Shown here piece by piece: positions 5,884 to 50,221 of a stretch of DNA of 60,627 bases. The stretch lies in the NCBI GenBank assembly GCA_034687125.1, contig JAQGBZ010000369.1, positions 1 through 60,627 of the forward strand, read 5' to 3'. The stretch's first letter is position 1. Each line of letters begins with the position of its first letter. The notes under the pieces were generated by a model. It was not told where the DNA came from. It saw only the letters and a list, made by a program, of their open reading frames with translations, and searched no databases. The position numbers were made by a program, and so were the translations under genes. Source of the stretch: Neelides folsomi (taxonomy: Eukaryota > Arthropoda > Collembola > Neelipleona > Neelidae).

Positions 5884-7669
5884 TTAAATCTCAGTTTTGG
5901 CATTTCTCGTTTCCCGCTCTGCCTCCAATCGCAGGTTTTTGGCTTTATAAAAAAATGGCACAATGGACAATACTGAAGCAAATGCCGCCATGAAAATCAA
6001 TGCATTTTTATAATTCTTTGGTGGATCTGCATTTAGATTGTCGTCCCTCAAAATATCCAATAATGACAAGACAATGACCGCCGCCGCTTGTCCCCCCATC
6101 CACAACAAAGAAGTTGAAGTTGATGGCGGTGCTGGATACGTACATTCAATACCAAGTTCAAGAGCCACTGGCAAAAGAGAAAACGACGTCAATCCCATCA
6201 CGGCAAAACTGACAATTAAAATCCAAAAGAAATTTTCCCTCACAGTAAAAATAATTGCAATGTAAGTCAATGCAATCAATGGCGTGACGCATTTAATAAA
6301 ATTTTGATAATTTTTTGTTTTGTCTACATAAGGACCAGCCACGCCTGCACCGATCAACCCCGCGACAATTAGTCCGGCGCCGAATAACCCAGCTTCATCT
6401 TCGCTGTATTTATACGGTTGGACAATTTGTTGGATTAACGAAGTCACGGCATTGAAGAAAGCGACAAAAAGAGAGAAAACGATAAAAAGGAGCCAAAACG
6501 CTTTGTTTTTTGAAACTTTCTTGATTGAGATCCAAAATGGGAGTTCGACGAGATCGGCGATGGCGGAGGCGGCCGAGGGCGAAGGCGGAGTTGACGGAGT
6601 CGCTTGCATTATAAATGCTGGGATTATGGCGACGATTCCGATTCCTCCGACGACATAAAGACTGCGAGGAATGTCCGATGAAGTTGAAACGATGGAGGGA
6701 AATAATATGAAGGCCAAAGCAGCAGACAAAGGACTTGCTATAAAAATAAATAATTTATATTATTAATTTTTTAATTTTCAATTTAATCAAATTATTTTAT
6801 ATTTCAACATTAAAAGTTTTAATATTGTTTAAATGTTAATTAAATGATCATTAACTTACAAATGCTCCCAATGGTCGTTGCTGTAGCTCGACTTCCTTCA
6901 CTGAACCAAACAGCGGCAAACTTTGGGGGCGCATTGAGAAAAAAGGGTTGTCCAGCAGCGGCTATTAACTGCCCGATTAAAACTATTGAAAGACGCCATT
7001 CAAAATTCTCTTCATCGCTTTCAATAAACGCTCCTATGTATCGAATCCATGAGCCGATAATGTTCAGTAATCCTCCAACAATTAACTAAAAATTAAAAAA
7101 AATTAACTAAAGAATAAAAAAAACCACCGAGTAAAAATTATTAAATTCTTATTACATAACAGTATTAAAATATCAAGAAAAAACATTTCATGTAATAATT
7201 TCATTCGCAATTCGCAGAGTTTTTAAAATATCATTATTTGAATAATTACCGCAGTTTTTATCCCCCATTTCTCAAAAATAAATCCACTGACTGGAGCTAC
7301 AAGGACAAATGCGACAAAATACAAAACGGCCGTTAAATTAACATTTGTTTCTGTTGTGTTGAGCCATTCTTTTGCCATTCCTGGGACGGCCGTGAAAGTG
7401 AGCCAAACAAGTCCAGTTGACAAATTCAAAGCGATGATTGCGCCCATTCCAATCCATCTACGTTTGTACATTTGATATTCAACTTGGTTTCCTCCGTCGT
7501 TTCCTCCATTGGTTTCACTTTGTCCATTCTGCTCACTCCCAACACTTCCAAATCCAAATCCGCTGTCTTCAACTTCACTTCGCTCTCTTTCATCTTCTGA
7601 CAAGGAACGAAATCGACCTTCGGAATTTTCAACACTTTCAGAATCGGAAATTACATGAACTTTGGACAT
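5884..7669 (-). CDS. SLC49/FLVCR-like major facilitator transporter
   Basis: Three exons join in frame: 7669-7250, 7085-6860 and 6737-5884 (stop), giving 1500 bases and 499 aa, normal for SLC49. Introns of 164 and 122 bases have GT-AG ends. The ATG at 7669 follows CAAC, a good arthropod start context. About 65 N-terminal residues are acidic and Ser-rich and should be cytosolic. The family block YKRRWIGMGAIIALNLSTGL opens the first helix. The loop after helix 2 ends with KWGIKTA, exon 2 gives GSWIRYIGA and GQPFFLNAPPKFAAVWF, and exon 3 begins SSPLS and carries GAGVAGPYVDKTKN. About 12 membrane spans are readable. FLVCR1/2 export or import heme, choline or ethanolamine; the SLC49A3 and A4 members are less well known. 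The wording is nearest to the SLC49A3 (MFSD7) type, but the substrate cannot be read from sequence. Divergent from the kinase 2.3 kb away. Confidence 0.88.
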
Positions 7670-9991: not shown

Positions 9992-13252
<3,261 letters not shown>

Positions 13253-13942: not shown

Positions 13943-14651
13943 AAATGGACGGTTAAATTAACCCCTGAATTAATTGATTAAACAATAGTGGGGTCTGTGA
14001 TATAAAAATTATAATATTTAGCGGGCTAATAACTAATGAGTTTTTAAAATTTAATGTTATACTACATAGAAGATATTATTAGATTATATAACATTTTAAT
14101 AGTAACTATAATCAAGAATGATTAAAAGAATCATACCTAATAGTTATTTGATATTTCCTCAACTAATTGGATACAAGAAAATTGTTCTTTCCTTAATATT
14201 AATTTGCTTATTTCCTCATTTTTTATTTTTTTCCTTCCAAATTAAGGAAAATAATAAATTCAAATTTAACGGCTAAAATGTTATTGTTTAATAATTTTCA
14301 TTAATTTATTTGTTCAACTTCAACTGTAAATTATTAATTAATAAAATTTTATAGATGATGGAATATTGATTGCTACAAATGGGAGATTCAAATTCAATTC
14401 ATGGTATTTAAAATTAAGTAATTTCTTTATATAAATCAATGATTTATAAATATAATTATGTATATACATATTTAAAATCAAAATCATTGATAATTACCTA
14501 GGTATATAATGAAAACATGGGTTTTTTAATTTAATTTAATGTTGAAGTAATTATAATTTTTTTTATTTATAAATAAATTAATGTAGATAGAGATTTTCAT
14601 ACTTCTGAATCATTAATTTGATTAATTATGTAATTTATAATTTATTTTTAG
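13943..14651. other. AT-rich spacer upstream of the NLR-like gene
   Basis: No complete exon could be placed. The NLR-like gene opens with a splice acceptor at 14650-14651, so a first exon and promoter should lie here or further upstream. A small open segment at about 14355-14402 sits between an acceptor-like and a donor-like site, but none of its frames joins the next exon in phase. Confidence 0.4.
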
Positions 14652-17600
14652 ATCGGATTTTAAAATGGGCTACAATTTTAGCAAAGTATTACTATCCACA
14701 AAATGAAGTACAACTATTTTATTTGAAATTAAATTTACTGAATAAACACGAAGAAAATGAAACGAAAAATAAAGTTGTCGCATTTTACAATGCGATTGAT
14801 ATGTGGATGAAAACAAAGCCTGAAGGAAAAATTGAAGATAAGCTTTTTGAAATTTTGAGAGAATTGAATTGGAACATTGCGGCTGAGGAAATTTCTGGAA
14901 TTCCAATAAAAAGACAAACAACTGACGGAAAATTGTGGAATGTTCCTAAAAAATTGAAAACTTTTATAGGAAGAGAAATTTATTTGAAAAAAATCGAAGA
15001 ATTATTTGAACAAGAAATGCCCTATGTTCTGGTTTCAGCTTACGTTGGAATGGGTGGAATTGGCAAAACATCTTTGATTTCTGAATATATTTGGAGAAAC
15101 ACAAAAACATATGAAAGAATCATTTGGTTCAATTCTGATCCTAAAGAGAATTTGCTCAATAAAGAATTCCTCAAATTTGGCGAAGAATTAAAAATCACAA
15201 AAGAAGAAAATAAAGATATTTCAAAAATTATCAAATGGTTTGAAAATACTGAAAATGATTGGTTAATTGTATTTGACAATGTTGAAAATGCGGAATCAAT
15301 TGAAAATTATTTACCCAAAACAGGGGGTAAAATTTTAATAACTTCAAGGAATCGGTCTTTCGAAAATGAAGAAACAATTCAATTAAATCAATTTGAATTA
15401 CAAGAAGTAAAAGATTATTTAATGAAAGTCATTCCAAACGAGTATGTAAAGCGTCCCCGGATTTAATAGAAAAATTTGCAAATCAACTTGAATTTCATCC
15501 ACTCGCAATTTCACAAGCAATTTCTTATATAAATAAAATGAAAGTCAGCATTGGTAAATATGTTGAAACTTATGAAATAAAATTAGATTTAATGCAAAAA
15601 TCAATTCCAGAAAATATTTTGATCAAAAATCCTTTTATTAAATCTCACAAACATGTATTTACAAATCTAATAGTTTCCGTAAGAGAGATTTACCTAAATA
15701 ATTTAGATGCGTTTAATTCATTGAATCAATGCGCATATTTACTGCCAAATAAAATTCCAAGAATTTTACTCGAAGAAGATGTTTTGGAGATTCTTCAAGA
15801 ATATTCAATGATAACTTTGGAAAATGATGATTTTCTATCCATGCATCGACTTGTGAAACAATCATTATTATTTAAAATATTTGGAAATTACACAACAGAA
15901 AAAGACCTTCAAATGCAATAAATTTAATTATTTCTTTACTTTAATTTCCTTTTGGATTATATTATTATATTATTAATAATTACCCAAAATAAATATTACT
16001 GCATATTTTAAATATATAATTTCTTGTTGATTTTAAAGGTATCCTGAAAATATTTCTCAAGAAGTCCTTAAAAAAGCATTTATTTTGATTGACACGCATT
16101 ATCCTTTTGGACGAGTAACTGAAAATAGATTGATCTTAAAATCATATTTATTGCCACACTATCAATCATTAACATTTTACAACAGCAAAATTAATGGGAT
16201 AATTTTTCAAGATTTTGATCTTCGTAAACGATTTGAAATCAAAAATTACAATTTCAAATTGAGAAATTCAGATAAATTTGCAAATATATTACACAATAAA
16301 CCTATTACATCAGGAAATTATCAAATTCAGAAACCCGAAGAAAATACCATAATAAACGGTCTTAAATATTATGAAATGTCATGTAAATGCCATCAAGATG
16401 ACTTTGAAATTATAATCAAAAACTTAAAATTAAGTTTAAATATATTTCGAAATATTTTGAAAAATGATCATGAATTAATTATTGAAATAAATTATATTCT
16501 TGGAATTCAAAATCGTCACAGATTGAAGTTTAACTATAAATGTCAATCAGAACCTGAAAATTTTGCAGGCAAAGAAATTAATTATATTTCGAGGTACAAT
16601 TTGGCGCGTTCGTATTATTATGAAAAAATAGGAGACAAAGATGATATGACTAAAAGAAATGAATTTGTGTCCTTCTTATATCAATCCTATAATATACAGC
16701 GAAATTTACTGAGAAAAGGTCATTTTGATTATTTCAGGATTTATATTTTATTTAAATGATTACTTAAATGTTTATATTCAAATAATCATAATTATATTTT
16801 TATTTGAGTGTAGAATGGATTTTATTTATAAGTTTTCATTTGTCAAAAATCCACAATAATCCTGAAGATTTATATTTACTATATAATACTCTTTTCGATC
16901 AAGAATTTAATAAATCCATTATTAACATGAATATGGATTTTTTTGCTTTATATTATGATTTGCTTCTAAAGTGGGCGAATGAAAGAGAAACTGGAATTTC
17001 ATTGCATTTCATGTTAATTGAAATTTTACAACAAGATTTAAAGTGGATTAAAATCGTTAAAAGCATTCCAGTAAATATTTTTACATTTTGCCCTTAAAAT
17101 TCAATTTATTTATATCAATTTAATTTTAAAATTTACAACATAAAATCTTTTTTAGATCAAATGGTTACCAAGGAAGAATCCAAACGTTGAATTGAGAAAT
17201 CAAATGATTTCAAAAGTATTTGAGAACAATGAAAACTTAAAATTACAATTTATATGTGAAGACTTGGAGTTCAATGAAAGAATGTTTATTGAAACATTAA
17301 AATTTAATAATATTCAATTAGATTTTAATAATTCTGCAAATGACTCTCTTTTACATATTGTAACTGAATTAGAATTATTGGAAACAACTAAATATTTTCT
17401 TGAAAAGGGGGCAAATTTAAAACTTTTAAATGAAAATCACTTTAACCCTTTAGAAATTGCAATTAAAAATGAATCCATAGATTTAGTAAATGTTATTTTA
17501 GAAAGTAAAGCAATGGTTGACATAACTAATTGTAACAAAACATTTTTAAATAAGGCATTATATTTAGCTTCATTCAACGGAAATTTTGAAATTGTTAAAT

Positions 17601-20294
17601 CTCTAGTAGAAAAAATGAGAAATATTGACACTTTTATTGATAAATCAACTTCCTTGCATATAGCATCACTATTTGGGTATGAAGACATTGTCAAACTATT
17701 TTTAGAGAAAGGAGCAAAACTTGAAGTTTTGGATGAGAAAAAAATGACTCCTTTACATAAGTCGTCGAATAACGGAAATGCGGAAATTGTAAAATTACTT
17801 ATCAAACACGGTGCGAAAATTGATGTGTTTGATATAAATGAATGGACTCCCTTGCATTGGGCTTCCAATGAAGGGCATTCAGAAATTGTCCAAATCCTTA
17901 TTAAAGAAGGAGCAGAAATAGATGTTTGGGACAAAAATAAATGGACTCCCTTGCACATGGCTTCTAGTAGAGGAAATGCAGAAGTTGTCAAATTGCTTTT
18001 AGAAAAAGAAGCAAAAATTGATGTTTACGACGAAGATAAATGGAGTCCCTTACATTTGTCGTCAATTGAAGGCCATTCAGAAGTTGTGAAAATTTTATTA
18101 GAAAAAGGAGCAAATTAAATTCTTTTGAAGAATTTAATTGGACACCTTTACATTGGGCTTCAAATAATGGACATGCCGAAGCTGTCAAATTACTTTTGGA
18201 AAATGGTGCTAAAATTGAAGTTTATGATGAAGATAAATTGACTTCTTTGCATTTATCCTCTACAAATGGACATACAGAAGTTGTTAAATTACTTTTACAA
18301 AAAGGAGCAAATATTAATGTTTTGGATAAATTTAAATCAACCCCATTGCATTGGGCGTCATCTGAAGGGCAATTTCATACTGTTGAATTACTTTTAGAAA
18401 AGGGGGCAAAAATTGAAATTTATGATCAAGATCATTTGACCCCTCTATATTGGGCATTGGGTAAGGAACATTTGGAAATTGTAAAATTATTTATTGAAAA
18501 GGGGGCAGATCTTTTAGATGACTTAAATTGGAAGCTTTTGCATTGGGCGACTTCAATTGGGAATTTCGACATTGTGAAATTACTTTTGGAAAAGGGAGCA
18601 AAAATTGAAGTATTTGATAAAGAGAATTCGACTCCGTTGCATGTACCCACAATAAATGGATACACTGAAGTGGTAAAATTACTTTTAGAAAAAGGAGCAA
18701 TGGTAGACGTTTTGGATAACTTTAATCGGACGAGTTTGCATTGGGCTTCTTCTCTGGGACATTTTAAAATTGTTCAATTACTCATAGAACAAGGAGCAAA
18801 AATTGATGTTTTGGATCAAAATAATTCAACTCCTTTATATAGGGCGTCTAGTAAAGGGCACTCTGAAATTGTAAAATATCTCATAGGAAAAGGAGCAAAA
18901 ATCGATCATTTAGATAATTCAAATTTAAGTCCTTTGCATAAAGCTTTATCCAATGGACATTTGAATGTTGTAAAGTTACTTTTAAAAAAAGTAAATAAAT
19001 TTGATGTTTTTGATAAATCAAATTTGGCCTCTTTACATAAAGCTTTATGGTCTGGACATAGAGATGTTGCAAATTTTGTATTTGAAAAGGGAATCACTAT
19101 AGATATTTATAATGATGATAATTGGACTCCTTTGCATTTGGATTCAATTTGGGCACATGTTGATGTAATTAAAATTATGTTAGATAAAGGAACGAAAATG
19201 GATGTAATTGGAAAGGGTAATTGGACACTTTTACATTGGGGATCATCTGAATCACACCAAGAATTTGAAAAATTACTCGTTAAAAAATCATTTAAACTTG
19301 ATACCTTTCATAAATTGGAATCTGAGGATTCTGAACCATTGCAAATGATTTCATTTGAAGATGTATCTGAATTTTGGAAGGACATTTATTGTACTAAATT
19401 TGAAAGAAGATCGAAGAGAAAAGATCGAGAAATTGTAAAATTGCTTTTAGCTAAAGGAGCAAAATTTGATTATTTTATTAATAATATTTGGGTTGCCTTA
19501 AAGATAATGTTAAAAGAAGAAGATTCACTTAATTCCAAAATATTATTAGAAAGTAAAGCAAAATTAATTTTAGAACATAAAAACAAAATTGTTCCATCAA
19601 GAGATTTTATAGGACGTAATATTCCTCGGAAATTAACTCTCAAAAGTTATATATACGATAATTTTAAACTAATTTGTAATTTAAATGAAAATGTAAATTA
19701 TAGAAGAAGAAATTTGGTTTTTCGAGGAGGATTTTTTAAAAACGTAATAAAAATAGGAAATTATGAAGATAACAATGAAAATGAGGACACATGGTTTTCA
19801 GAATATAAAGATAAAATTCCTCCAAATGAATATCACTTAGAAATTGTGAAACTACTTTTGGAAAAAGGAGCAAAAATGAATGTTTTTGGAAATGAAAATT
19901 GGAGTATTTTAAATTGGACTTCAACTGATGGAAATGACAATTTTTTAAAATTACTTAAAGACACTGGAACAAAACATATTATTTCTGATTTGAATTATTC
20001 TCCTACAAAATGGCTTCAAGACTTTACTTCTAATGGAGTTTTAAAAATGCTTTTAGAAAAAGGAGCAAAATTAGATCTTTTTAATAAATTCATTTGGGAT
20101 CCATTAAATATTGAGCTGAATAAAGGAGTTCAAGTTGAAAACTTAGTTTCAGAAGTAGGAATAAAAAGAGATATTTTGAATCCACTGCATGTAGCCTTAA
20201 CAGAGGAACATGCCAATATTTGAAATTAATTCTGAAAAATGAACTTGAAATACAAGTTTTTAATTATAAAAATTCCGCATTCTTACATTTTTAA
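14652..20294 (+). CDS. NLR-like death/NB-ARC/ankyrin protein, three frameshifts
   Basis: The exon opening at 14652 (acceptor TTTTTAG) first gives a death-like helical region ending in DKLFEILRELNWNIAAEEI. The NB-ARC ATPase follows: P-loop GMGGIGKT (15047-15070), Walker B WLIVFDNV (15260-15283), TSR in KILITSRNRSF, a GLPL-like FHPLAIS, and the winged-helix MHRLVKQ (15841). A helical, partly TPR-like spacer (16.0-17.2 kb) leads to about 25 ankyrin repeats of 33 residues (17.35-20.29 kb). Introns fit at 15915-16038 (GC-AG), 16719-16813 and 17071-17155. Three frameshifts interrupt the frame, at about 15455, 18115 and 20221, each as if one base were missing. Intact length would be near 1780 aa. 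NLR/STAND proteins are ATP-switched sensors that oligomerise on ligand binding; here ankyrins would sense and the death-like domain would signal. The first exon is not found. It may be a young pseudogene, or the shifts may be assembly errors. Confidence 0.8.
15455..15458 (+). other. Frameshift 1 in the NLR-like gene (C4 run)
   Basis: The NB-ARC frame closes at 15464-15466. The clearly homologous continuation (ANQLEFHPLAIS and onward) starts at once in another frame from 15460. The change equals one missing base and falls at a run of four C. No GT-AG intron of any size here restores the frame. Confidence 0.75.
15915..16038 (+). other. Candidate GC-AG intron in the NLR-like gene
   Basis: No GT donor lies before the stop at 15919-15921. 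A GC donor at 15915 joined to the acceptor TTTAAAG at 16037-16038 gives an in-frame junction (DLQM/YPENISQE) and a 124-base intron, like the others in this gene. Confidence 0.5.
18109..18120 (+). other. Frameshift 2 in the ankyrin array
   Basis: The repeat frame closes at 18116-18118 just after EKGAN, and the same repeat resumes in a different frame as NWTPLHWASNNGH. One missing T in the AATTAAATT stretch would explain it. Repeat register is kept on both sides. Confidence 0.75.
20217..20223 (+). other. Frameshift 3 near the end of the ankyrin array
   Basis: The frame closes at 20221-20223 after EEHANI. In the next frame KLILKNELEIQVFNYK follows, as an ankyrin helix would, to a stop at 20292-20294. 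One missing base again accounts for it. Confidence 0.65.
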
Positions 20295-45540: not shown

Positions 45541-46125
45541 AATTTCTCAATTTCCCATTCAATCTCTCTCCTATTGTTACATGGACAAATATGAACTCAT
45601 CAATTGTTCCATTCACTAAATAAGCTTTCAATATCAAATGGATTTGATCAGAAATTCTGATTCACAATTGAAAAACAAATTTCTTATTTAAGGTGCAGTA
45701 AATGTAAGAAGCTTAAATGCAATAAAGTGAAAGAATGTGACAAAATGAGAAAGAAAGGGATTTTAATTCATTGCAAAACTCCAAGTTCATTTTACTAATT
45801 AACTACATTGAAAAATTTAAAAAAAACCAAGATCACTTTTTGTTAACCAATTAAAGATTATTAAATAATTAAGCTCATTAAATCAATTCAAGCTTTATTA
45901 AAGAGTTCATCATAATAAACTTAGGTTAATGACAATAATGAAATTAATGACATTGAGATTTTACCTTACAAAAGTATATATTTAATAAAATAAGTATACG
46001 ACTTTTTTATACAAATTACTTAATTTAACTTTCCAAAACTGCTAAATTTTTAATTAAGCTAATTTAAATTAATTAATCAATATTTAATAATTAACTAATA
46101 AATTATAATTTTTTGTTTTTCAGGT

Positions 46126-49100
46126 ATGAGTTTGTCAACTTCTTCTCTTCTCTTCCTTTTGGCCATTGTGAGCTTCGTCCACTGCGAAGAGGAAAACGGT
46201 CGTTCCTTCAATCCAAATCATTTCGAAGTCGATCGTCGTTTCGGTCGCCCCGCTCGTCTTCCCCTCAACCCGCGTCGGAATCTCCCACGTCGTCCACATC
46301 GGAATTTCGACGATCTTTCACCCGCAGCCCAAACACTTTACGACCTCCGCGGTTTTCACATCCCTTTGGGGAATGCCGAAGAAACTCAGCGATTCCTCCA
46401 ACAAAACAATCACCGTTTGAACAATGCTCCTCCCCGTCCTTCGAGCTTCATTGGAAACAATGGCCAGCAACATCACCATGGTGGAATCATCGCAGCACAA
46501 AATTCAAATTTTAACAATCGCCATCAACCAATTCAACCCCAACACCAACAACAACAACCACTAGTTTTTCCTTCATTTTTCCAATCACACGATTCGAGAA
46601 CTCCCGATAGAAATAATGTCCAAATATTTCCCCACAATTACAATAATGTTTTCGGTCATGGTCAACATCATCAACAGACTTTGAATTTCCCGCGACAGCC
46701 GCAGCCGCCGACTAATTTCCGTCCGAGTCAAGTCGATCTCGGCACAACTACCGAAACTACTTTATTTAAACCTTCGTTAATTGGGCAAAATTTAGCTCAG
46801 TCGACAACGTCCCGACCGACCCCGTTTTTAAAACCTGCCCAAGAGAACGAGGACGAGCCGTTCGTTTACGTTTACGAGGACGTTGATTATGGCGACGAAG
46901 AACCCAACGTTTTGGTAAATCGCCCTCTGACGACGACTCTTAAAACCACAACCCGCGGAACTTCAAAACCTCCAACAACGCCCAAAATCCGTCTACATCC
47001 CACGCAGGTTGTCCCACAGACGACGAACGTCTTAGACGACGATTTATTTTACCACAATGAAGAATTTTTAAGATTCCCGCCGTCGCCCTCACCGCCTGCG
47101 CCGACCCAACAACAGCAAATAGCCAAGGGCCCAAAGGTCGAAATTAATCCAAGTAGCGAACGTCGACCGCCACCAGATCAAAGCAATGCAATTCAACCAG
47201 CAGTTGGCCCAGACGTTTACAATCGAAATCAACAGCCGCCGATTATCTTAAGAGGAACCCCGGAACAAATTTATGTTGACGATCGTCGCCAACCGCAAGA
47301 CGAATTTCCCCAACAGTTTTATTTAGAAAAGAATCCGAGACAGAAAGGAAATCGCGATGAAGAAGTTTATTACGATATTTCGCCTTATTATTCATCGGAA
47401 AGAGATCAATTCAGAAACACAAGGATTCGAACAGAAAACAACGATCCGAATACAATTAGTGTAAACAACAACAATATATTTTCCCAACCGGAATATTTTG
47501 CCGAATTGGATCCAAATTCAAATTCGATTTCATCTCCCGCTCCTTCCACCACACGAGCCACGACGCCAGCCCCAATTGTTATTGTCACAACTTACAATCC
47601 TTCGACCTCAACTGCGCCGACGTCAACCACCCCGGGAGAAACTGAATATAAAAGTAAATTGCCGCCATTCCCCGGAACACGTGGACGGATCACTCCATTC
47701 ACCCGGTCAACATCAACTACGCGAACTCCGGAAACTACGACCACAACAACGACGCCAAGGCGAAGGTTGAGAATTCGTCGACCAACAACTTCACCAACAA
47801 CTACGACTTCGACCACGACCACTACAACAACAACGTCTAAGCCAAGGACGGAAAGACCAAGAGTTATTTTATTACCCGAAACAACCCAAGAATACTATGA
47901 TGATTATGATATTCAAGAACTCCCGCGGCAAACTCCACCAAGGCAGAGAATAGCTCCACCTAAGGGCAAACAGAAAATTGTTTATTACACCGATGAGGAC
48001 GAAATCATCGAGGATTATTTAGAAGAATTAAAACCGAAATTGAAACCGAAGGTCAATCGCGATCCAACTCCTTTGCCAGACCCTTCGAGATTTCCGCCAT
48101 TGTCACCGACAATTAACTCAATTGGGGGATCGACAACTTTTAGAGGACGCGGGAAACCTAAAAAAGTCTCAACGACGACGTCGACCACAACCACGAGGAC
48201 GACGACTCCATTTGTCATTAAAACCAGCAAGGATAAAAAGACAGGGAAACCGTTGTATGGAGGGAAGATGTTGAGCAAAGAAGGGGGACTATATGCTGGT
48301 CATGATATTCCACTTTACGTTCCTTATGGGGCTCCAGTTCCTCTTTTGCCAGTCAACACAGTTTTGGACAGAATCCCCGGGCTTTATGACCACAATGGAC
48401 AATATCAAATTGAAGTGACACGGAGACCGGCGGTCACTGTCACAACGAGCAGCTCCGGACCACGTCAAACTCATAGGATTAGATTCCAAGGTATTTTTAA
48501 AACTACGATTATAATACACACTATATGTATAATTACAATTAGCTCAAATTACAATTAATTTTACAATGTATCAAAATATTTATGTAATTAATAATTTACA
48601 TTAAGTGGTTAGTATTATTATAAATTGTAGAAAATAGTTAAAATGAAAAAAAAAATTGAAAATGTATGACAACAGCGTAGGTCTTTTTGAACCGTTGCAG
48701 TCTCCATTGGGTATTTTTTTACTAATATTTTTATATTTCACAGGGACAACTTCACCTCCGCCGATTTCCTCCACAACAGCTCCTGAAGTTGAAGAAGAAG
48801 ACGAGTCCGAGTTAGTTCGAATCCCAAGACCTCACATTCGTCCTGTCCAAACCACAGGAAACGTTCGAATCAGGAAGAAGCCAACTCCCCAACCGGATCG
48901 TGACAATTTCGACGAGAAGAAGAAGCAATTGATCATTTTCACAACTCGCCCTCCTGACCTTCACTCGACGACCGGTTTCGGTTCAGATGTCGAATTAACC
49001 GGGCCAGAAAGACCCTCCAAGCCGAATATAATAATCCGCCGTCGTCCAACTCGCCCTCCTCGTCCAATCCGACCCAAGCCAAAATTTTCCAATGAAGAGC

Positions 49101-50221
49101 CGGCAGAAGAAGTTGTTGAAAAAACCCGAGGAAAGACAAAGCAAATAATCGTTCCACGAAAAACCCGCCCGAGGGTTCGAGCAACTCCAACTCCATCTAC
49201 CACGGAAGCACCTACAACCGAACATATTGTTGAATCGGTCTCAATCGTTACGCAATCGTCAGTAAAGATCTCCCGGAAACCTACCGAATTACCCGGGAGA
49301 TTTAGCAGCCGTTACCGAGAAGAGGAATTCGGCCCGACTGCACCATTTAGTCCCACAGCTCCATCGTTTGCTTCTTCAGCAGCCGCCCTTGTTTCACCAG
49401 CTCCCTCTGCTGGGCCTTCAATAAAGCCGTTCAAGTCCAGGACCGTTTTCAAAGTGCCAAAAAAGATTCAAATTCATTCCACTACGGGAAATCCAATCAA
49501 AAAGGCTAAAAAACAATTGATCCATGACGAAGACGAACCCGCGTCTAAAAGGAGCGCAAGACCCCAAGCCGAAGACGATTTGCCCCCGACAATTCTTTTG
49601 TCTCCCAAAGATGTCATCGTGAATCGGAAACCATCAAGGAGAATTCCACCAGGATCGGCTTCAGATCGGCTAAAAGCATTGGCCGAAAGGAGGAAAAAAC
49701 TATTTGGGAGAAATAACGGCGGAGTTGTGGCGCCATCTTTGAGGAAGAAACCTATCGGGAAGAAAATTAAATCCAGTGATGATGAATATTTGAACGGAGA
49801 GCAAACTGCCAATTTGCCTCAGTCAGGAAATAGTTCAACTGTGGGGGGTTCAAACGGGAAGCGGGAAATTAGCAATTCTGGGAAAGAAAATCAAGTTGTG
49901 GACAAAAACGGCAGTGTTGATGTTTCCAGCGAAGAAGTGAGCTCGCATGAAACTGCGCAAGTGCTTGGGCTACAAAAACTAAAAATCAATTTTAAAACCA
50001 ACCGCCAAAAGGACGAGGAATTGACGAGAGAAGAAGACGACTCAACAATGCAAGACGAAGAGGACGAGAAAAACGAAGGTTTGAAAAAATCCTCATCAGT
50101 TGAGCCGTCGACTGAATCTTCAAGACACGTAAAAAGAATTGTCCCGATGGCCACAGAAGAGCCGATTTTGCCATTGGAAACTTATTTCCCAATTTTATCC
50201 CAACACCATCTGCAGAATTAA
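46126..50221 (+). CDS. Secreted Pro/Thr/Gln-rich mucin-like protein, 1280 aa
   Basis: Two coding exons, 46126-48490 and 48744-50221, join at phase 1 (RFQ-G-TTSPPP) to give 3843 bases. The ATG lies two bases after an acceptor (TTTTTCAG), so a noncoding exon precedes it. Residues 1 to about 20 (SLLFLLAIVSFVHC, then EEEN) form a signal peptide. After it come Arg/Pro-rich, Gln/His-rich and acidic stretches, then long Thr/Pro/Ser tracts (about residues 500-600) that suit O-glycosylation. A Tyr/Gly/Pro-rich segment with KTGKPLYGGKMLSKEGGLYA and DIPLYVPYGAPVPLLP is the least simple part. Exon 2 carries Thr/Pro, Lys/Arg and acidic tracts and ends KRIVPMATEEPILPLETYFP. Cys are nearly absent. It resembles extracellular-matrix or cuticle-associated mucin-like proteins of arthropods; no named family is recognised. 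It lies beside the 26-kb desert. Confidence 0.85.

Follow-up and report, generated by a model that had tools for sequence, protein, structure and literature searches.

A springtail gene family joining a death-like domain, a bacterial-type NB-ARC and a long ankyrin array, and its frame-broken member in Neelides folsomi

Textbook accounts generally describe arthropods as having no NLR receptors and as depending on Toll, IMD and RNAi. A locus in the springtail Neelides folsomi, in which a death-like region, an NB-ARC and an ankyrin array follow one another on the same strand, raises the question of what kind of gene this is, whether it is intact and where its parts come from. Such a layout is that of an immune or cell-death sensor, unexpected in this animal branch. 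There are reports of arthropod NACHT proteins (PMC5062602), and none of the papers searched pairs Collembola with NB-ARC.

Layout and integrity of the locus

The window, that is, the whole stretch of 60,627 nucleotides analysed (contig JAQGBZ010000369.1), holds one frame-broken member of a multi-copy springtail gene family with the layout death-like domain, bacterial-type NB-ARC and long ankyrin-repeat array. The features of the locus are the following:

14379..14403, + strand: exon 1, MGDSNSIH plus one base, with a GTATTT donor, upstream of the start given by the first-pass annotation
14404..14651, + strand: intron 1, from a GT donor to a TTTTTAG acceptor, its removal restoring the codon phase
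14652..14899, + strand: N-terminal death-like helical domain (exon 2), from the alignment with 20 other genome copies
14940..15442, + strand: first open piece of the NB-ARC (P-loop, Walker B, TSR)
15443..15453, + strand: stretch with the NB-ARC frame break, where the open frame switches
15454..15914, + strand: second piece of the NB-ARC and winged helix (HPLAIS, MHRLVKQ), to the end of exon 2; FxSxx_TPR in register, model 175-291, 24.7 bits
15915..16038, + strand: intron 2, with a GC donor instead of GT
16039..16718, + strand: exon 3, helical TPR-like linker, order and splice sites kept in paralogues
16814..17070, + strand: exon 4, linker, kept in paralogues between GT-AG borders, no Pfam match
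17156..18115, + strand: exon 5, ankyrin array part a, 8 units (Ank_2, 3.2e-57); exons 3-4-5 are open up to here
18116..20220, + strand: exon 5 continued in a different frame, ankyrin part b, 16 units, the last four partial (Ank_2, 4.8e-92)
20221..20294, + strand: 3' tail, beyond one more break, running in a third frame to a stop

Counterparts of exon 1, each a short Met exon with a GT donor, stand ahead of several paralogues (MDTSNQ, MVDSIK, MDSSNE, MDAINQ). All motifs named by the first-pass annotation were located on the + strand in the order it gave: P-loop VGMGGIGKT (15044-15070), Walker B WLIVFDN (from 15260), TSR (from 15341), GLPL-like HPLAIS (from 15496) and MHRLVKQS (from 15841). Exons 3, 4 and 5 join by splicing into a single open frame, and the longest open frame of the locus is 717 codons; in 300 first-order Markov sequences the longest frame averaged 100 codons and never exceeded 170.

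Of the single receptor gene proposed for this locus, the order of the parts stands, whereas the coding path does not: it is broken inside the NB-ARC (15443-15453), in the ankyrin exon (~18115) and at the 3' end (~20220), and at the donor site of intron 2, GC in the window, all nine paralogues displayed have GT. A full protein cannot be made from this copy as assembled, and the locus is best explained as a recently broken or mis-assembled family member. The site of the NB-ARC break is uninterrupted in, for example, the C824, C235, C305, C458 and C517 copies, within a single exon of 417-451 codons. We give an even chance to the window copy being a dead pseudogene while other copies work. The three breaks and the loss of the GT donor favour this account, as do breaks in other copies, such as an in-frame stop in the C824 ankyrin array and the stops that interrupt the NB-ARC exon of C449; against it, each of the three breaks is at or next to a short homopolymer, where consensus errors often fall, and exon 2 is under purifying selection, with dN/dS of 0.26-0.39 for both window pieces in six pairs with paralogues, indicating that the copy was coding during most of its history.

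The family, its ankyrin array and its N-terminal domain

A search of the genome, in which 28 of 32 candidates matched on scoring, identified 15 loci with the death-like domain and the NB-ARC, the window included. An ankyrin exon follows downstream, in the same order, at nine of the 15, again with the window (the C829 array, on the opposite strand, is excluded from this count). The uninterrupted paralogue C235 (1949 aa) comprises the death-like domain, NB-ARC, winged helix, helical linker and 35 ankyrin units, and in paralogues the first three of these occupy one long uninterrupted exon. Given the shared order at nine loci and the single frame of exons 3-4-5, the NB-ARC and ankyrin halves belong together, and the N-terminal and ankyrin parts, assigned to one receptor by the first-pass annotation, did not prove to be separate genes at the genome level. 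Two of the 15 loci carry a DM9 domain, above the Pfam cut-off of 26.2 bits in the next exon of C341 (39.8 bits) and of C832 (36.4 bits); a DM9 assignment for the first C-terminal exon of C341 was rejected, with 0 families in Pfam.

With a model of the repeat unit derived from the C235 copy we counted 24 ankyrin units in the window (8+16, the last four partial), in line with the earlier estimate of about 25. WD40 was absent from the Pfam matches in the window, the sensor being the ankyrin array, and repeat number varies from 13 to 35 units among the open arrays of five copies (two on C235, and C662, C517 and C449). To analyze divergence along the repeat we used contact positions which we take to be the randomised positions of designed ankyrin proteins, mapped after the C235 column entropies had been seen; five positions were used in the first, post hoc run and all six in the later one. 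In the C235 copy, pN was 0.361 at contact positions and 0.146 elsewhere, with a pS of 0.183. Contact pN exceeded that of the remaining positions in all eight arrays (permutation p < 0.05 in seven), a set whose units are interdependent and to which the window contributes twice, once with each half of its array; at contact positions pN exceeded pS, with a bootstrap interval over zero, in four of the eight, neither window array among them. Judged from these alignments, the putative binding-face positions change faster than other positions.

The N-terminal region had been called death-like from its helix pattern. The helices are recovered in AF2 models of low to middling confidence (pLDDT 50.7 for the domain alone), while the Death assignment is sub-threshold: Pfam Death matches five of 21 family members (best E 0.001), all below cut-off, the best at 19.6 bits against a gathering score of 22.6 bits, and the window's own domain matches only Death_3, at 13.0 bits. 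Three further tests were negative. The death-like alignment matched nothing in a profile search of the PDB; hhalign against one canonical Death domain of the same genome (C765) gave a probability of 0.5, where shuffles reached 3.7; and Foldseek with the domain alone returned a best E of 4.3 and a single death domain (1wxp) at E 9, values that are not meaningful at pLDDT 50.7. VIA matches to the two-domain model fall mainly on residues 83-264 and barely cover the N-terminal domain. The domain adjoins caspase exons on C832 (Peptidase_C14, 71 bits; 69.4 bits genome-wide), precedes kinase exons on C769 and sits after a canonical Death domain (34 bits) on C765. Death-like domains have been described in bacteria (PMC8195603).

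Identity and origin of the NB-ARC

The NB-ARC of the window, with Walker A and B present, scores 33.8 bits against a Pfam cut-off of 23.5, bearing out the earlier domain call, and the bacterial NCBIfam model FxSxx_TPR is the better fit (109 bits; 153 bits in the C235 copy). A winged helix is predicted from the FxSxx_TPR match, which in the open C235 copy runs from model position 1 to 326; Pfam DUF7779 reached 21 bits in the winged-helix test, under its cut-off. The predicted NB-ARC model aligns structurally with tomato NRC1, Apaf-1, Dark and CED-4.

Bacterial NB-ARC-TPR proteins (NF040586; Rickettsia endosymbiont P0121) are collinear with the family over NB-ARC and winged helix, at 32-36% identity among the best matches listed and down to 22% in the lists. 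The best matches cover the NB-ARC part only, not the death-like domain, and the bacterial model has TPR where the springtail family has its ankyrin array. TPR, one of the families put forward earlier for profile search, did not exceed any cut-off in the window (TPR_12 reached only 14 bits, in the exon 3 linker), and the family falls outside the FxSxx-COOH system TPR proteins, its parts scoring 109 and 153 bits against a 300-bit equivalog cut-off, with no TPR over cut-off.

In the second of two trees, which included named loci, the 12 springtail copies form one clade (100/100) with P0001-P0004 as sister (99/90), and these are then joined by Rickettsia and gammaproteobacterial proteins (100/96). 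The first tree comprised 56 of 240 listed homologues (160 and 181 found), the 12 own copies and the springtail's own Apaf-1; from this the named-loci tree differs in lacking Apaf-1 and 11 of the 56 homologues and in including 13 of 80 named loci. In the latter, bootstrap had not settled, midpoint rooting served for drawing only, and 22 of 70 rows, own copies included, failed the composition check. Both trees exclude the broken or partial loci C449, C699, C765 and C542 and the partial C832 copy. A Paracaedibacter-type protein group lies beside the own copies in the first tree and on the other side in the named-loci tree. Among the 80 named loci, tblastn matched the window best to Streptomyces (29-32%) and the C235 copy best to a Bacillota MAG, then Rickettsia. 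A donor search of phage DNA and phage proteins gave no match; relatives occurred in 14 of 95 stretches of viral contigs (26-51% identity over the best segment) and in 20 plasmid records, all below 60% identity and eight of them Streptomyces. PADLOC returned weak hits only for the window and none for the C235 copy.

Lateral transfer of the NB-ARC is likely; an intracellular proteobacterium is the most probable source of the module, which would then have been fused to the death-like domain. With few animal NB-ARC sequences in the tree sampling, vertical descent keeps a share of the probability and the bacterium-to-springtail direction is provisional. We assign appreciably less than an even chance to the NB-ARC being an old animal NB-ARC-TPR/ANK receptor that springtails retained and most other arthropods lost, its bacterial likeness being due to shared ancestry or to animal-to-symbiont transfer. 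Coral NACHT/NB-ARC proteins, whose described N-terminal domains include Death and whose C-terminal ones include ankyrin, maybe not in one protein (PMC4083563), speak for such a receptor, as do phage WO NACHT-ankyrin proteins, reported as nearest to, and embedded among, arthropod homologues (PMC5062602). Three observations weigh against it: no animal-named row occurs among the best 120 matches of each of two homologue searches (uniref and nr rows included, most rows nameless), the own copies are placed beside proteobacterial proteins in the trees, and a single long uninterrupted exon holds the death-like domain, NB-ARC and winged helix.

Bacterial nearest relatives could also mean that the contig or gene is contamination from a symbiont or other organism, which we consider extremely improbable. 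Spliceosomal introns at conserved sites and the spread of copies over many contigs led us to reject prokaryotic contamination; moreover, protein-kinase and MFS exons share the window's contig, and the assembly contains 39 cuticle-domain (Chitin_bind_4) matches and a springtail COX1, as expected of the arthropod-like genome first suspected. The mite allergen family Blo-t-5 gave no match in the genome, in a search whose control likewise gave no signal; COX1 places the genome in Collembola.

An Apaf-1/Dark protein with a swapped sensor, the reading invited by the first-pass comparison with that lineage, was also rejected, on grounds short of a proper tree. The NB-ARC fold and a predicted caspase link are common to both; the Apaf-1/Dark sensor, however, is WD40, the NB-ARC is nearer to bacterial NB-ARC-TPR proteins and better fitted by FxSxx_TPR, and the genome has a separate Apaf-1-like NB-ARC and WD40 gene (C267), the pieces of which had no BLAST match among the 240 listed homologues and a very long branch in the first tree.

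Proposed function and significance

Our main reading, to which we assign a probability of roughly 0.55, is that the locus belongs to a springtail-expanded family of NLR-like STAND NTPases, with an N-terminal death-like domain shared with caspase, kinase and other exons and an NB-ARC from a proteobacterium, acting as ligand-gated switches for cell death or defence. The layout of NB-ARC and ankyrin sensor agrees with the innate immune or cell-death switch proposed earlier, a role that we infer from sequence. The ankyrin array, with its diversifying binding face, would keep the NB-ARC closed until bound by a ligand, for which a protein of a microbe or symbiont is the likeliest candidate; ADP/ATP exchange and ring or filament assembly would ensue, and the clustered death-like domains would recruit partners with the same domain, above all caspase and kinase, triggering cell death or defence signalling. 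It is unlikely that the family, instead of sensing microbes, regulates apoptosis or development in the animal itself or is an effector domesticated from a symbiont. In favour of this reading are the death-like domain borne also by a caspase and the Rickettsia endosymbionts among the nearest named bacterial relatives; copy number, repeat numbers of 13 to 35 and fast binding-face change are more in keeping with a diversifying receptor than with a housekeeping role.

The proposed receptor family resembles known systems in part. Fungal NLRs (NB-ARC/NACHT with ANK/TPR) likewise use a STAND switch and near-identical repeat units varying at the concave binding face (PMC4986451), and excess change at concave-face positions is found here; their effectors differ (PNP_UDP, sesB-like, HET), with no caspase link noted (PMC4986451). 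As described, coral and placozoan NACHT/NB-ARC repertoires combine Death-family effectors with NB-ARC and show lineage-specific expansion (PMC4083563, PMC6321704), a pattern that the springtail family with its death-like domain resembles, and coral C-terminal repeats include ankyrin, as in springtails (PMC4083563), whereas placozoan proteins carry WD40 or TPR (PMC6321704). Phage WO and arthropod NACHT-ankyrin proteins, in which STAND and ankyrins are common to arthropods and an endosymbiont's phage, are set apart by their description, having NACHT rather than NB-ARC and a latrotoxin C-terminal domain (PMC5062602).

More tentatively, and with somewhat less than even odds, springtails may have built an NLR system of their own, in which an NB-ARC captured from an intracellular proteobacterium and fused to a death-like domain common to caspase, kinase and adaptors later expanded with exchangeable sensors (diversifying ankyrin arrays or DM9) into an inflammasome- or resistosome-like network independent of Apaf-1. 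A survey of HGT chimeras in arthropods predicted the greatest number in Folsomia candida but, in its described procedure, filtered out ankyrin repeats as confounding (PMC13389597), and genes of this kind could thus have escaped notice. A springtail family with a death-like domain, NB-ARC and diversifying ankyrin array, alongside a caspase with the same N-terminal domain, would make the independent origin of NLR-type sensing in animals directly testable, and would exemplify how animal cell-death wiring can take up a STAND switch from bacteria.

Gene model and genomic context

The splice pattern of the window locus was derived from its paralogues, yielding five exons:

14379-14403, plus: exon 1, a tiny Met exon
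14652-15914, plus: exon 2, death-like domain, NB-ARC and winged helix
16039-16718, plus: exon 3
16814-17070, plus: exon 4
from 17156, plus: exon 5, ankyrin

The first-pass annotation had read this locus as a single death/NB-ARC/ankyrin receptor. This reading is partly supported by the splicing of exons 3, 4 and 5 into one open frame to 18115, but the window copy itself is frame-broken at three sites (between 15443 and 15453, at about 18115 and at about 20220), and its intron 2 donor is GC, with GT in nine of nine displayed paralogues. The breaks may reflect decay or consensus errors. Because dN/dS between the two window pieces and paralogues is 0.26-0.39 (six pairs), the locus has been coding for most of its life.

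The arthropod affinity proposed for the genome can be narrowed to springtail, on the basis of 39 Chitin_bind_4 matches in the assembly (75.1 Mb, 840 contigs) and of COX1, for which, among the best 120 of 7999 rows, the first-listed named Collembola were 84-86% identical, one further record was 93% identical and non-collembolan rows began at about 82%. Elsewhere in the window, animal-type genes are represented by an MFS transporter exon (5887-6759, minus) and a protein kinase exon (10570-10797, plus). An ISXO2-like (IS1595) transposase domain lies at 225-674, plus (45.6 bits), and a G+C-richer stretch (0.44) at 46102-50218, plus, holds two long open frames of 818 and 524 codons, with no Pfam match at E 0.001.

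Family architectures and the N-terminal domain

Searching the assembly with the window exon produced 28 matches, with 32 candidates scored. Ranges interpreted by hand place a death-like domain with NB-ARC at 15 loci including the window, the remaining matches being fragments or N-terminal domains lacking NB-ARC. The order of NB-ARC followed by ankyrins recurs at nine loci, again including the window, as a downstream same-strand ankyrin exon, and the paralogue on contig C235 retains all five exons uninterrupted (1949 aa, 35 ankyrin units). Other members depart from this plan.

Further architectures (L, stretch of the contig named)
C341, L011 3555-6574: NB-ARC copy leading to DM9 (39.8 bits, cut-off 26.2)
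C832, L029 3-2090: NB-ARC copy leading to DM9 (36.4 bits, cut-off 26.2), cut by the contig end
C365, L023 2313-4358: death-like domain joined directly to an array of about 14 ankyrin units, in a single frame, without NB-ARC
C166, L025 6216-7562, minus: single open frame of 449 aa with death-like domain, hydrophobic stretch, then a TPR-like region (TPR_12 22 bits, under cut-off)
C832, L029 3436-5145: death-like domain, then caspase exons (Peptidase_C14 71 bits; STHG and NACRG motifs)
C769, L030 2028-3285: death-like domain, then protein kinase exons in that order, putatively a single gene
C765, L027 3217-3971, minus: canonical Pfam Death (34 bits) directly upstream of the death-like domain

The DM9 repeat domain, a possible lectin-like sensor, replaces the ankyrins in its two copies (splice phase judged by eye), and the hydrophobic stretch of C166 looks membrane-spanning. 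For the caspase, the kinase and C765, the coupling is a same-strand exon order read from DNA, not a transcript; the caspase is a candidate downstream protease, and the C765 pair a possible tandem adaptor.

Alignment of 21 copies of the N-terminal domain reveals the helix and tryptophan pattern typical of death domains. Pfam Death matches more members than any other family (5/21, best E 0.001, all under cut-off); scanned singly, four of ten members match it at model positions 16-84, 32-82, 7-85 and 31-83 of 86, and a genome-wide search with the model scores the C765 member at 18.4 bits (E 0.14). Against a death fold, the domain gave no match in a PDB profile search and no signal in hhalign against one canonical Death domain, and its low-confidence single-sequence model had no useful structural matches. 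The domain, which the first-pass annotation had called death-like from its helix pattern and as its weakest part, is likely of that kind.

Variation in the putative sensor and probable source of the NB-ARC

The 33 in-register ankyrin units of the C235 copy have a mean DNA identity of 81%, and some pairs are identical; in this array pN is 0.361 at six binding-face positions and 0.146 elsewhere, with pS at 0.183 (permutation p 0.0006). Contact pN exceeds that of the remaining positions in all eight arrays (p < 0.05 in seven; 0.051 in C662), and exceeds pS past the bootstrap interval in four of the eight, none of them the window's. Fungal NLR repeats are reported to vary at the binding face, as these arrays do, in a study that calls high internal repeat conservation rare in metazoans (PMC4986451).

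In a tree of 70 NB-ARC rows, drawn with midpoint rooting, the 12 springtail copies form a single clade (100/100), sister to four homologous proteins, P0001-P0004 (99/90), and both fall within a group (100/96) that includes Rickettsia endosymbionts and gammaproteobacteria and excludes the actinobacterial, cyanobacterial and two fungal rows; support is rough, with an unsettled bootstrap and 22 rows, own copies included, deviating in letter make-up. An earlier tree rooted on the genome's own Apaf-1 recovered the same neighbours (SH-aLRT 94 and 88). The genome's Apaf-1-like pieces lie separately on C267, with WD40-like exons, and have no BLAST match among the 240 returned homologues. Against 80 named loci, plain tblastn ranked Streptomyces best for the window (29-32%) and a Bacillota MAG, then Rickettsia, for the C235 copy, without singling out Rickettsia as nearest; P0001-P0004 are 36-37% identical to their nearest locus. 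Together, in a set without cnidarian, crustacean or other springtail NB-ARCs, these results favour a bacterial source for the family's NB-ARC, with an intracellular proteobacterium as the most likely donor; vertical descent or transfer in the reverse direction may apply instead.

Known relatives and proposed action

The general kind of receptor is already known, with published descriptions of coral NACHT/NB-ARC repertoires where Death is one of the effector domains and ankyrin one of the repeat types (PMC4083563), placozoan Death-family and NB-ARC combinations with WD40 or TPR (PMC6321704), and NACHT-ankyrin proteins in arthropods and phage WO (PMC5062602). Open-licence PMC searches found nothing for Collembola with NB-ARC, nothing on topic by title and abstract start for springtails with NOD-like receptor or NLR, and, among the papers listed by broader searches, no springtail case; a term search of the main text of the Folsomia candida genome paper found neither NB-ARC nor NACHT (PMC5490193). 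As far as the literature was searched, what is new is a family, in a springtail, that combines a bacterial-type switch with exchangeable sensors and has its N-terminal domain in common with a caspase. Alongside the parts, order, membership and relatives documented for this family, we infer each step of its most likely action: a ligand binding the ankyrin face would open the ADP-held NB-ARC, which would oligomerise and cluster the death-like domains, and these would in turn recruit a caspase or kinase bearing the same domain.
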